32,521 nucleotides of DNA from Slackia heliotrinireducens (GTDB lineage Bacteria > Actinomycetota > Aquicultoria > DYIV01), in assembly GCA_020723435.1 (NCBI GenBank), contig DYIV01000001.1:60272-92792 (forward strand), given 5' to 3'. The notes beneath the pieces are model-generated. The model was not told the DNA's origin. It made no database searches and worked only from the letters and a program-made list of their open reading frames with translations. The position numbers and the translations under genes were made by a program. Positions within the stretch are counted from its first letter, which is position 1; every line of letters begins with the position of its first letter. This document shows, piece after piece, positions 14,150 to 26,115 of this stretch.

Positions 14150-15349
14150 CTACTCCAACGTGATCCTGTAGATCATCCCGGCGAAATCGTCGGTCACGTA
14201 GAGCGCCCCGTCTTGTCCGAATACTACGTCGACCGGCCGACCGGAGGCGCGACCGCCATCCAGCCAGCCGGTGACCAGATCGTGCTGGGAGAGGACCTTC
14301 GTGCCCTCAACGACAAGACGCACGAGCTTGTAGCCGGTGGGTTCCGAGCGATTCCACGACCCGTGAAAGGCCACGATCAGATTGCCCTGCCACGCCTTCG
14401 GCCACCTCGGGTCCCGCACGAAGGCCAGACCGAGCGGAGCCGAATGCGCCTGGCAGCCCCAGACCGGGGCGATCGTCTTGCTTCATATTCGCCTGGTACC
14501 GCCGAATGGATCGGGGATGCGGTCGCCGTAGCAGTACGGCCAGCCATAGTCCCCTCCATCGGTGATGATGTTGAGCTCGTCCGGGGGTGTGTCATCGCCG
14601 AGCAGGTCACGCCCCATGTCATTGCCCCATATCCGTTCCTGACGGTCGAAGGTGAAGAAGACGGTGTTGCGCAGTCCCTTCGCGTAGACGCGCAGGTTCT
14701 TCCCATCGGCGTCACAGACGAGCATCGCCGCGCGGTGTTTGTCGCTCTCGACGCCGACGTTCATCGACGATCCTACGGTCATGTAGAGCCGGGCTTTGCT
14801 GTCGAATCGCACCGTCCTGGTCACGTGGCCGCCACCGGACGGCAGGTCGACTACCTTGGCCGGACTCGAGAGCGTGATCTTGAGGGGATCGTAGATGTAG
14901 CGGCTCACGCTGTCCGTCTCGGCGACGTAGAGCTCGGCCGGCATGGCGCCGGGCCGAAACGTAAGCCCGTGAGGAACGTCGAGGTTGTCGGCGAGGACCT
15001 TCCTGCTCTCCGCGACGCCGTCTCGGTTCTCATCTCGCAGGGCCGTGACGCGCCCTGCGTCCCTTTCGCTGACCAGCAGCGTGCCCCGATAGTCGAAGAG
15101 CATTACGCGAGGACCGTCGAGGTCTCTGGCAAAGACTCGCACCTTTAGGCCGCCGGCCGCATCGAGAGGAAGCGCGGTCTGCGACGACGGCACGGAGCGC
15201 AGGGGCCGAGCGGGCAAAACAAGCGGCTGGACTCCCCGGCCGAAGCGCCACCACACCGCGACGACCGCGGCGCAGCATGACAGGACCACGGCGCCGGCGA
15301 CCACCGCCATCACACGCCACGGACTCCTACGGTCGGCCGTGCGAATCAC
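14150..15349 (-). CDS. PQQ-dependent sugar dehydrogenase-like (sorbosone/glucose dehydrogenase family) membrane-anchored protein; candidate selenoprotein with in-frame TGA at 14483-14485
   Basis: ORFs 14483-15349 and 14150-14419 are in the same frame (offset 930 nt). Read-through gives ...GDYGWPYCYGDRIPDPFGGTRRI-U-SKTIAPVWGCQAHSAPLGLAFVRDPRWPKAWQGNLIVAFHGSWNRSEPTGYKLV..., a continuous family sequence. N-terminal TM segment. SECIS-like hairpin after the TGA. Confidence 0.82.
14456..14470 (-). promoter_or_regulatory. Candidate bacterial SECIS apical stem-loop (sugar dehydrogenase gene)
   Basis: mRNA: UGA-AGCAAGACGAUC-GCCCC-GGUCU-GGGGC; 5-bp perfect stem, loop GGUCU starting 17 nt after UGA. 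Confidence 0.75.
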
Positions 15350-18152: not shown

Positions 18153-18824
18153 CTATCGTCCGATGGAGGCCTTGTCGCGATCTCCGCTGTTCGTGTAGCC
18201 TCGCCGCTCCCAGTAGCCGCGAAACGACACGTCGTCGGACAGCTCGATCGAGGTGATCCACTTGATCCACTTGTATCCCCATTTGTCCTCCGCGACAAGC
18301 ATGAACGGAAAGCCCCTTACAGCCGGGATGAGCACGCCGTTCATCTTGTCGGCGACGATGATGTCCTTCTTGTAGAAATAGTCGAGCGGAAACGAGGTGG
18401 AGTATCCGTCCGCCGCCCGCAGAATGACCACCTTGGTTCTCGGATCCACGCCAGCCTGCTTGAGCAGGTCTCGCATCAGGAAGCCTTCCCACAGGATATT
18501 CACGCTCCAGCCCTCGACGCAGTCGAGACGGACGACCTTCCGGTACCGCCGCTTGCCAGCAAGCACTTGCGCGTAGGTCAGAGTCAGCGGCCTCTTCACG
18601 AGGCCGTGGAGACGCATCCGGTAGCTCGCCTGCTTCACGTACTGCGGCCCCTTTATCGAGTTCTCCACGAAGTCGCCGACCGACGAGAGCCTCTTGCCTT
18701 GGTACTCCTTGACCTCGACTCGCTTCAGGTCGGCTATCCCTGAGCCCTGTTGCTGCCGCGCGCAGCCGGACGCCAGAAACATCCCGACCGCCAGGATTGC
18801 CGCTGACTTCATCCCAGTGTGCAT
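18153..18824 (-). CDS. Sulfite-oxidase-fold molybdopterin-dependent lipoprotein
   Basis: Lipobox MFLASGC; LHGLVKRPLTLTYAQVLA, VRLDCVEGWSVNILWEG (Mo-ligand Cys region), GYSTSFPLDYFY, GFPFMLVAEDKWGYKWIKWITSIEL. Start chosen at Met 18824. Confidence 0.85.
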   Translation of the reverse strand: MHTGMKSAAILAVGMFLASGCARQQQGSGIADLKRVEVKEYQGKRLSSVGDFVENSIKGPQYVKQASYRMRLHGLVKRPLTLTYAQVLAGKRRYRKVVRLDCVEGWSVNILWEGFLMRDLLKQAGVDPRTKVVILRAADGYSTSFPLDYFYKKDIIVADKMNGVLIPAVRGFPFMLVAEDKWGYKWIKWITSIELSDDVSFRGYWERRGYTNSGDRDKASIGR

Positions 18825-19156
18825 CCACGTCTCCTCGCCGTGCCGTTGCTGTTTGCTCCGAGATGCCCGATCGCGATGACGATCAAACCGGAGCGCACAG
18901 GTCGGCGGTGTCGAATCACCGCCCGTGGGGACACGCATTCCCTTGCGCCAACGACACAATGCGCTTATGCTGTACCGGGCGCCATGCGTATCAAATGTGA
19001 GAATGCACTGGGTGCCTGGGTGAGTCCTCTACCCGCGAGATCTTTCTGAGGCGGTTCCGATCCGGTCCGGGCGGTGCGTGCTACAGGAGTCTCCATCGCT
19101 GTACGACTCGCACCAAAAGCTGTCCCGCGTGGGGACGTTCGGATGGGAGGTTGAAA

Positions 19157-19467: not shown

Positions 19468-20022
19468 CTACTGAATCGGCGGATTGTGCTCCCACCAGTT
19501 GAAGAGACCGAAGGTGCCGGAGTTGTACTGCTTCACCGCGAACGGCAGGACTTGATCGCGCGCCGCCACGGCCGCCGCGTTGGCGTCGACGGCCACACCC
19601 GGCTGGACGGCCCTAATCAAGAAGAACCGCCGACCGCCCCGGGTGACTTCATCGGCGAGGACTTGCTCGTCCCTCGCCCCGAGCTTGGCGGTGTGGTCGA
19701 ACATGACCGTGGGAATCGACAGAGGAGGCGCCGTGAACTCGTGCGTCGTCATGTGCTGCGGCCACTTCTCGTAGTTCGTGCAGTCAAGGAGGACGAATCC
19801 AAACCACCTGGACCAGTACCATTTCACAAGCTCCTGCAGAGCCGCCGATGCCAAGGCGTACACCGGAGCTCCCGTCTGCGGATCCACCGGTCTCTTTGCC
19901 TTCAGCACCGCCTGGTCCGCGAAGAGCCGGTACCGGTCGTCGTCGCCCAGGACCGTCCTGACCGCCGCCGCCGTGGCGCCTTCTCCGATCACAAGAATGT
20001 CTGTTCTCTTTTCGTGAATCAC
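19468..20022 (-). CDS. Conserved-looking protein of unknown function
   Basis: ORF from GTG 20022: VIHEKRTDILVIGEGATAAAVRTVLGDDDRYRLFADQ...; downstream of and co-oriented with the YVTN gene. Family not recognised. Confidence 0.6.
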   Translation of the reverse strand: MIHEKRTDILVIGEGATAAAVRTVLGDDDRYRLFADQAVLKAKRPVDPQTGAPVYALASAALQELVKWYWSRWFGFVLLDCTNYEKWPQHMTTHEFTAPPLSIPTVMFDHTAKLGARDEQVLADEVTRGGRRFFLIRAVQPGVAVDANAAAVAARDQVLPFAVKQYNSGTFGLFNWWEHNPPIQ

Positions 20023-20119
20023 GTCGACTCTCTCCCCTCGACCACCCTGATCTGCCGGCGCGAGGACCACTCCGCGCCAGCCTCAAAGTACGTGAATGCG
20101 CTCCGTGAAGCAAGCCGCC

Positions 20120-21448
20120 TCATCGCTCGAACCACCAGAACGGGTCGGTGGCGAGTCCCATGGCAGTGCCGCCGCCGATAGAACCGAACAGCTTCTCGCC
20201 GCCCGTCCCGACCTGCACCCGAGCTACGACCTTGTCATTGGCCGTGTTGATGACGGCCACCTTTCCGTCGGCGTACGTGCCCGAGCTCACGTAGGTCCTC
20301 TTGCCGTCAGACCTGACGGCGACGTCGAACGGTCAGCCGCCGAGGTCGAGCGGTATTCCCTTCATCCTCGTGTGGCCGGCCACCTTGATCGGGACGGCCA
20401 GGTCACTTGCGCCGCAGATGGTATAGGCTTTCGTACCGTCCGGAGTGAACGCGACCGCTTTCGGCCCGCTTCTGGGCTCGAATGCGATCTTCTTCGTCAC
20501 CTTCAAGGCGGCGGTGTCGATCGCCGCCACGCCGTCCCATCTACCTCCCCCACTGCCCGATGCCGCCTGTGTGCCGACGCGATTGACATCGACCGACGAA
20601 ACCGTCGCGTACACCAACGTGCCGTCGGGACTCACCGCGACGTCGGAGCCGAAGCCGTGGAGCGGAATGCGCTTGATGACCGCGTCGGTCGCCACATCGA
20701 TCACCGCCACGAACTCCGAGCCGTTCGCCAGCTTCGGTATCGACAGCGTGGCGGACTGTCCGGGCATCTTCTGCACCGACTTTCGCCCTACAACCGCGCT
20801 GACGTGACTGACGTAGGCGCGCTTGCCGTCAAATGAGATCGATATTCCCAACGGATGCTTGCCTACGGCGATTGACTTGAGCCGGGCGCGCGTCGCGGCG
20901 TCGTAGACCGCCACCTCACTGCCGCCGGTCATTGTAATGTAGGCCTTCTTGCCGTCCGGAGTGAAAGCAACCTGACCGGAGTGGCGGGCGTCTATCGTCT
21001 CTTTCACTTCACCGCTGGTGGGATCTAGGATCAGTAGCGGCTTGTCGAGCATTCCGCGGAGGGTATCCCACCCCAGCGACGTGCACCACAGCTCCGTGCC
21101 GTCCGGCTTGAGAGCGACGTTCTGGATTGAGTGCGGCACCGGCCACTGCGTGTCCCGCTTCTCCGTCGCTCCCTTGATACGCGCGACAACGTCCTTCTTC
21201 CCGCCGGCCGCGCAGTAGACGAAACCAGGCTCCGCCTCCAACCGGGCGCGCAGTGTTCTCACCCAGTCAGCTTCCGGCTCGGCCCGATCCTTGTCGTCGC
21301 TTGTCTCGGTCCCGGTCGAGCCCTTCGTCCCGTCGGAGTCCCTCGTTTGGGACAGCAACGAGCAACCGCCCGATGCAACGGCGAGACCCAGCAGCAACGC
21401 AACGATCAACGGCCCGGCGATGGCGCGCGCGAATCTCAAAACCTTCAT
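20120..21448 (-). CDS. YVTN-family beta-propeller lipoprotein; candidate selenoprotein with in-frame TGA at 20333-20335
   Basis: Lipobox GLAVASGGCSLL; repeated blades (QVAFTPDGKKAYITM, GISISFDGKRAYVSH, DVAVSPDGTLVYATV, AVAFTPDGTKAYTIC). After the TGA the same frame continues with another blade: GG-U-PFDVAVRSDGKRTYVSSGTYADGKVAVINTANDKVVARVQVGTGGEKLFGSIGGGTAMGLATDPFWWFER, stop at 20120-20122. SECIS-like hairpin after the TGA. Confidence 0.82.
20303..20320 (-). promoter_or_regulatory. Candidate bacterial SECIS apical stem-loop (YVTN gene)
   Basis: mRNA: UGA-CCGUUCGACGUC-GCCGUCA-GGUC-UGACGGC; 7-bp perfect stem, GGUC loop starting 19 nt after UGA. Confidence 0.78.
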
Positions 21449-21634
21449 GACTCCCTCCTCATCCGTCCAGCCACAATCGTTGTCGGTCCATTCATACCGC
21501 TACTGAAGCTCTTGGGGGGGCGAGGTCCATCTCATTGGGCATGGCCGGACAGGAGCCATGGGAAGATACGGCACCCGGTCATTGGCCGACCCCAGACCGA
21601 TGGGACCGCTGCAGAGCCGCTTGAGGCCGGCCGC

Positions 21635-24621: not shown

Positions 24622-25758
24622 CTACACCCGCGCGAACTGGTCGAGCCAGTAGGCCTCGTCGTCCCGCGCAAGAACGATCATCTTCCCCTCGTCGGATGGG
24701 TACTTCGCGCGGTGGTATCTTGCGTAGACGTGTTCGTCGTCGTATCCGACAACTTCGATCTTGCCCGTCGCGTGCGACATGCAGAAGCGAGCCTGCCGCG
24801 ATAGTCCCGACACGCGGGAACGGGCCTCCGAGACGAGTCTGAATGCTCTAAGCAGCGGTATCTTGAACGATCCGTTGCCCGCCGTCGGGCGGCACTGAAA
24901 GATGTAGTACTGAGGACAACCCGCGTCCGTGCACGCCTGGAAAAGCTCCGCGAGGGTGACCACGTCATCGTTGATGCCCCGGGTCAGAGGACATTGGTTG
25001 GCGCACATTACGCCGAGACTCCTCAAGACCCGGATGCCCTTGACGGCGGCTGGTGTCAACTCCCGGGCGTGATCGAAGTGGCACATGACATAGATGCGCC
25101 CGCCGTCGGAGGCATGCGAGCGAAGGATCGCCTGAAGATCGTGGTCGTCGAGAATGCGGTACGGATTGAACGCGACCACCTTCGTCCCGATGCGAACTGT
25201 GTGGATATGAGGTATCTCGCGGACGGCTTCGATGATCTCCCCTAGTCGGGAGGTCGGCAGCGTCAGAGGATCACCGCCGGTTAGAAGCACGTCGGTGATC
25301 TCGGGATGGGCGCGAATGTAGTCCAGCCCCTCATCCACCCTACGGCTCGCCTCCCGGCTTCCAGGCAGAAACAGCCGCTTGCGGAAGCAGTACCGGCAGA
25401 AACCGGCGCACTGATCTGTGACGAGCAAAACCGCGGTGTCCGAGTACTTGTGCTGAAGACCCTGCAGCTTCGTGTTGGCGCTCTCGTCGGACGCGTCGAG
25501 CGTGCCGAATTCACACAGCTCGTCCGGTGAGGGCACGATGAGGCGACGGATGGGATCCTCAGAGTCGGACCAGTCGATCAGTCCCAGGTAGCTGCTGCTC
25601 GCGCGGAAGGCGTACCTGTCGGTCACCGGCCGAAGGCTGTCCAACTCATCAGAGGAAAGCTGCTCGATGCCTCGGACATCGGTCAGATACCGAATCGACC
25701 CATGGCGCGGGATTCGGCCTCCCCGATCCTGCCTGTGGTGAATAGTGCTGCGTCTCAT
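24622..25758 (-). CDS. KamA-family radical SAM protein (lysine 2,3-aminomutase-like)
   Basis: DQCAGFCRYCFRKRLF (CxxxCxxC), TDVLLTGGDPLTL, VMCHFDHARELTPAAVKGIRVLRSLGV, NQCPLTRGIND. Confidence 0.92.
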   Translation of the reverse strand: MRRSTIHHRQDRGGRIPRHGSIRYLTDVRGIEQLSSDELDSLRPVTDRYAFRASSSYLGLIDWSDSEDPIRRLIVPSPDELCEFGTLDASDESANTKLQGLQHKYSDTAVLLVTDQCAGFCRYCFRKRLFLPGSREASRRVDEGLDYIRAHPEITDVLLTGGDPLTLPTSRLGEIIEAVREIPHIHTVRIGTKVVAFNPYRILDDHDLQAILRSHASDGGRIYVMCHFDHARELTPAAVKGIRVLRSLGVMCANQCPLTRGINDDVVTLAELFQACTDAGCPQYYIFQCRPTAGNGSFKIPLLRAFRLVSEARSRVSGLSRQARFCMSHATGKIEVVGYDDEHVYARYHRAKYPSDEGKMIVLARDDEAYWLDQFARV

Positions 25759-25815
25759 GGCTGCCACTTCCTTTGTCCTTGGTGCTGCCGGGCCGCTTTC
25801 CAAAGCCAACGCTTC

Positions 25816-25834
25816 AGATAGCGGCCCGACTATC
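25816..25834. repeat. 19-bp repeat copy 1 (AGATAGCGGCCCGACTATC) containing GATAG/CTATC inverted arms
   Basis: Exact copy found again at 25957-25975. Confidence 0.85.
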
Positions 25835-25956
25835 AGTGCTGGTAACCTCCGGAGCTCGCGGCCCCGGACCCTACTACGCCTCTATATACGTGTTGTATCG
25901 GTACCTAGCTTCGGGAGGCTGACACCTCACATGAGAAAGCCGCCACCCGACATGTT

Positions 25957-25975
25957 AGATAGCGGCCCGACTATC
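25957..25975. repeat. 19-bp repeat copy 2 (AGATAGCGGCCCGACTATC)
   Basis: Exact match to 25816-25834. Confidence 0.85.
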
Positions 25976-26115
25976 CAGTGTCTCCTCTGGAGTCCCCCAC
26001 CCCAGACCCTGTCGAGAACATTATCCGCCCGCTGTCGGTCGGGTGTCAATTCTGCCCGGTTGTGCGGAGTCGGACGGAGCGAACCGACCATCCGTCGCCC
26101 TCGTCCGGCCGTGGA

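Follow-up and report, generated by a model that had tools for sequence, protein, structure and literature searches.

The minus strand of the window (the whole stretch of 32,521 nucleotides analysed here) contains a frame running from 21448 to 20120, which consists of 371 codons, an in-frame TGA (20335-20333), a further 70 codons and a second TGA (20122-20120). The standard reading of this gene stops at the first of these, codon 372. Taken as a whole (20120..21448, minus strand), the putative selenoprotein gene would have 442 codons, with selenocysteine (Sec) at 372, followed by the terminal TGA. A purine-rich ribosome-binding site (GAGGAGGG, 21453..21460, minus strand) can be read from the sequence 4 nt upstream of the ATG at 21448, as can a signal peptide spanning residues 1-28 (21365..21448, minus strand) and directly preceding Cys29. 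The latter is likely to be the lipid-attachment cysteine, an inference from the sequence; the lipobox, with ASGG ahead of the cysteine, is imperfect. A signal peptide followed by a cysteine is also seen in the homologs from three other genomes (G396, G398 and G431). The 70 codons beyond the first TGA (20123..20332, minus strand) correspond to the last blade of a β-propeller and a predicted final closing strand, ending in PFWWFER, and alignment indicates that the same end is kept in the homologs. A first-pass annotation had claimed that the frame continues for 70 codons as a propeller blade, from the TGA at 20333-20335 to the one at 20120-20122, and this held. The window copy shows no frameshift-type damage.

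In the RNA, the UGA (20333..20335, minus strand) is followed by a 12-nt spacer (20332-20321), the arm GCCGUCA (20320-20314), a GGUC loop (20313-20310) and the arm UGACGGC (20309-20303), together forming a SECIS-type hairpin (20303..20320, minus strand) with all seven pairs made and an energy of -12.2 kcal/mol. The perfect 7-bp stem and GGUC loop claimed earlier are thereby upheld, with the correction that the distance of 19 nt from the UGA applies to the start of the loop, the stem itself starting after 12 nt. The further claim that the tip is identical to that of the Escherichia coli fdhF SECIS also held: annotated fdhF records share CAGGUCUG with the window hairpin and place their GGUC loop 18 nt after the UGA. 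Of the 909 TGAs that the two strands of the window contain, no other is followed by a stem of at least 7 bp with a GGU-type loop. The bSECIS model (PMC13188914) specifies a loop of 3-9 nt, an upper stem of 4-16 bp, a G in the first two loop positions, a distance of 16-37 nt from the UGA and an MFE of -7.5 or lower; it is met by the hairpins of the window, G396, G398, G401 and G431. No Sec-related element was reported in the window by Rfam at its cut-offs. As an in-gene control, 46 other Asp-(Gly/Asp/Ser) turns from five family genes were considered; these have at most three consecutive pairs next to the loop, against seven at the Sec turn of each of the five. This supports the earlier suggestion that the RNA hairpin constrains the codons of the blade signature AVRSDGK.

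Homologs with the UGA at exactly the same column were recovered from seven other genomes, spanning two classes of a single phylum, with protein identities of 26-53%. A search of 60 related genomes yielded G013 and G018, which belong to the same class as the window and show C-terminal identities to it of 53% and 44%, respectively. Extending the search to 397 genomes of the phylum brought in G396, from outside that class, and searching the class of G396 in turn added G398, G401, G431 and then G449. In all eight genomes the TGA is followed by proline and a blade. The protein runs on past the TGA to the same C-terminus in the window genome (G000) and in G013, G018, G396, G398, G401 and G431; G449 has the TGA and the hairpin, and its contig ends shortly afterwards. 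The seven members with long enough contigs, which make up our alignment to the exclusion of G449, have in common a C-terminal PF motif, mostly PFWW (in G018 a TAG directly follows PF, near the gene end), and their invariant columns include Cys345, Sec372 and Pro373. On sequence evidence, and with translation inferred, the earlier claim that Sec is inserted just before the conserved proline of a YVTN blade is supported. The TGA recurs in seven further genomes, which makes it very unlikely that the codon is a TGG or TGC misread in sequencing, another of the refutations listed by the first-pass annotation. Among the pairs close enough to be compared, codon changes after the TGA fall mostly at third positions (6-1-16 at positions 1-2-3 for G398/G401, 1-3-9 for G431/G401 and 10-8-22 for G000/G013); hence, selection appears to have acted on the extension as protein.

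The hairpin shows a parallel conservation. Each TGA is followed by the same order of 12-nt spacer, 7-nt stem arm, 4-nt loop and second arm, and six genomes have the loop GGUC, the exceptions being G013 (GCUC) and G018 (AGGC). Stem pairing is 96.4% of 56 pair cells and falls to 21-50% when the partner is slid by 1-3 nt. Two stem pairs show compensatory changes and others change by wobble; a shuffle control gave only moderate support for covariation (25/500). The hairpin cores of G396, G431, G398 and G401 lie between -13.0 and -14.4 kcal/mol; those of G013 and G018, the weakest among the carriers, reach -5.8 and -4.6 and fall short of the bSECIS energy limit.

Apart from the TGA, five of the family genes are uninterrupted. 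The copies in G013 and G018, the closest homologs, contain frameshifts, while several neighbouring genes look intact, and these copies are probably decaying genes unless the assemblies are in error. As a separate observation, a C-terminal remnant of the same propeller, KVVNEQKNEIIDRVKVGLGNEGNALGLTVKPFWWFEH, occurs on the minus strand beside a formate-dehydrogenase-like gene in G009 (locus L038, 1501-1640, contig C50). It was rejected as a Sec-less ortholog, being a remnant without the Sec blade, and is likely to mark a lost gene. Barring assembly errors, then, the gene is seemingly in decay in several members of the class of the window (G013, G018 and G009).

Almost all selenoproteins have cysteine homologs (PMC12013277), although these are not a requirement, and the first-pass annotation had proposed inspecting this column for Cys or TGA. 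Within the family only TGA is found there; generic YVTN blades have A, N, Q, H, F, K and others. The expected cysteine form did not turn up in the close matches (up to 399 genomes of the G396 class) or in the generic YVTN matches, a survey that covers essentially one phylum. Plasmid matches were rejected as family members, being generic propellers only, and a single-sequence scan of genome contigs likewise returned only distant propellers.

All eight genomes carrying the gene code for SelA. However, SelA is widespread among genomes of the G396 class (159 of 299), and its co-occurrence with the gene alone proves little. SelB scored over the cut-off in six of the seven carriers tested, with G013 giving only fragments. 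Two SelB matches exceed the cut-off in the window genome, one (C116:24626-26521) near a tRNA-Sec that scores 54.2 bits, above its cut-off, and lies 33 nt before the selB match, and the other (C23:70-987) beside SelA; two long SelB matches are seen in G018 as well. The formate dehydrogenase of the window genome has an in-frame TGA at the classic Sec site (CARL-U-HSSTVAGL; locus L105, contig C135, locus position 1924), with a hairpin whose GGUCU loop lies 18 nt downstream. Hence, this organism appears to incorporate Sec into an already known selenoprotein by means of the same type of signal. As refutations of its proposal, the first-pass annotation had listed orthologs ending at the UGA, absence of the Sec machinery and lack of hairpin conservation. 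No such orthologs were found, those recovered continuing past the TGA at the same column; the machinery is present in the window genome as SelA, SelB and tRNA-Sec; and the hairpin is conserved across orthologs, with compensatory changes.

The whole window protein matches the YVTN repeat model TIGR02276 with 76.4 bits (cut-off 27.85, E 1e-21), and the G398 protein falls just below this cut-off at 26.9. The match to the Pfam lactonase propeller rises from 28.7 to 33.9 bits once the extension is included. AlphaFold2 predicts a propeller in which most blades exceed 85 pLDDT (the whole chain averages 76), and Foldseek and sequence searches against the PDB matched YVTN and seven-bladed propellers. 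In the read-through part the model has strands at 373-378, 384-389, 396-401, 406-412 and 428-434. The last of these is likely, by inference, to close the ring, so that a stop at the UGA should leave an open, incomplete propeller. Cys345 (codon 20414..20416, minus strand), which occupies the 'N' place of the YVTN strand (YTIC or YVVC) and is invariant in seven of seven aligned members, ends the model strand 340-345, and strand 373-378 starts directly after Sec372. Sec372 thus immediately precedes strand A of the last blade and Cys345 terminates strand B of the neighbouring, preceding one, an arrangement that in the model places the two residues on the same face. We infer that the two residues are likely to be close together, probably near the central channel, with no distance having been measured.

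The gene has no conserved neighbourhood; in different genomes it adjoins acyl-CoA ligase, amidohydrolase, branched-chain amino-acid ABC transporter or cyanophycin-synthetase-like genes. Operon context was consequently dropped as a functional link, and the function remains poorly constrained. Downstream in the window, on the minus strand, lie a 200-aa protein without family matches (19468-20070) and a molybdopterin-binding protein of the sulfite-oxidase type with a signal-peptide-like start (18153-18959). A link to the latter, two genes downstream, was discarded, as no such gene was recognised beside the G396, G398, G401 and G431 copies.

Elsewhere in the window, about 6 kb away, a glucose/sorbosone-dehydrogenase-like propeller gene (14156-15349, minus strand) ends at a TGA (14485-14483), with its frame continuing for 110 codons (SKTIAPVWGCQAHSAPLGL...) and a GCCCC-GGUCU-GGGGC hairpin whose loop lies 17 nt after that TGA. 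This is a second, independent Sec candidate, and is probably what the first-pass annotation had counted as its first. Two tandem copies of the nhaA-I RNA motif (25816-25871 and 25957-26009, minus strand) lie upstream of a gene (24622-25809) that looks like lysine 2,3-aminomutase.

We consider it very likely that UGA 372 encodes selenocysteine in a propeller protein; all the evidence is sequence, without protein, ribosome-profiling or selenium data. As we envisage it, the gene product would be an exported, probably lipid-anchored, seven-bladed YVTN β-propeller, whose UGA codon 372 would be decoded by the standard bacterial route, with SelB carrying Sec-tRNA and binding the GGUC-loop hairpin just downstream, a step for which the sequence evidence is strong. 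Read-through would supply the whole last blade and the ring-closing strand. In our preferred reading, which is inferred, Cys345 and Sec372 would act together in an extracytoplasmic site, either a redox site of the selenol-thiol/selenenylsulfide type or one that binds a soft metal.

One objection is that the UGA is an ordinary stop, the gene being a pseudogene or coding for a truncated protein, with the downstream similarity a remnant of an older, longer gene. The frameshifted copies in G013 and G018 and the remnant in G009 speak for this, and the window copy on its own could pass for a nonsense mutant. Against it, the TGA recurs in eight genomes from two classes, the downstream frames stay open and change with a third-position bias, five genes are otherwise uninterrupted and a SECIS-type hairpin is conserved at fixed spacing; we regard this explanation as very improbable. 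It could also be argued that the codon is read as some other amino acid, through a reassigned code (TGA as Trp or Gly) or near-cognate read-through. TGA is reassigned in some bacteria, and the identity of the residue is not given by sequence alone. However, many window genes, such as hom and pstC, appear to end in TGA as usual, the hairpin after the TGA is of the SECIS type, and the genome encodes SelA, SelB and tRNA-Sec, together with a Sec formate dehydrogenase whose hairpin shares this loop; this alternative, too, has very little to recommend it.

A less easily dismissed alternative accepts Sec but makes it independent of Cys345, for example as a metal ligand together with channel histidines or as an attachment point. 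Metals can sit in the central pore of propellers, as in AztD, which binds zinc there with three histidines (PMC6689063), and histidines recur at blade positions in the subgroup of the window (GKHP, YVSH/YVGH). On the other hand, these histidines are not conserved in the G396 subgroup, and Cys345 does not vary across the seven aligned members. We lean slightly against this version without being able to set it aside. The preferred reading of Cys345 and Sec372 as some form of Cys-Sec site, redox or soft-metal, is itself a functional inference that we advance tentatively, at rather less than even confidence.

The May 2026 review of prokaryotic selenoproteins (PMC13188914) lists 119 families or subfamilies, with no propeller in its Table 1; NCBIfam (June 2026) has no selenoprotein model matching the window protein; and the literature searched held nothing relevant linking YVTN or YncE with selenium. 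The first-pass statement that no YVTN selenoprotein is known held within these sources. The best PDB sequence match (E 5e-49), and the best fold match by E-value, is the archaeal surface-layer YVTN β-propeller (1l0q), which is not a selenoprotein; the Sec-blade turn of the window protein reads R-S-D-G as against S-P-D-G in the YVTN consensus. YncE and PQQ-associated propellers, hydrazine synthase β, L-NosZ and the AztD zinc chaperone show detectable repeat similarity, and some are metalloproteins; none figures in the PMC13188914 list, and the window protein is far under the curated whole-protein cut-offs where these were compared (YncE 55/400 bits, L-NosZ 51/700, hydrazine synthase β 74/560). 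The Sec formate dehydrogenases FdhF/FdhA share the recoding signal, with a GGUC loop 18-19 nt after the UGA, and are unrelated in protein and fold. GrdA, the selenoprotein A of glycine reductase, has likewise been reported to lack known cysteine homologs (PMC1794560) and is an unrelated protein.

As far as that review, NCBIfam and the literature searched go, this is very likely a new selenoprotein family, inferred from sequence alone, which combines a known mechanism with an unlisted fold. A bolder reading, which we offer as a conjecture more apt to fail than to hold, is that of a Sec-only family on the propeller fold with an extracytoplasmic Cys-Sec or selenium-metal active centre. The finding would enlarge the prokaryotic selenoproteome by one family and, it appears, by one fold. 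As no cysteine form was found, methods that rely on Cys/TGA pairs would miss the family, and with the standard reading stopping at the UGA, similar families may exist unseen. It also raises the question of why an exported propeller would need selenium.
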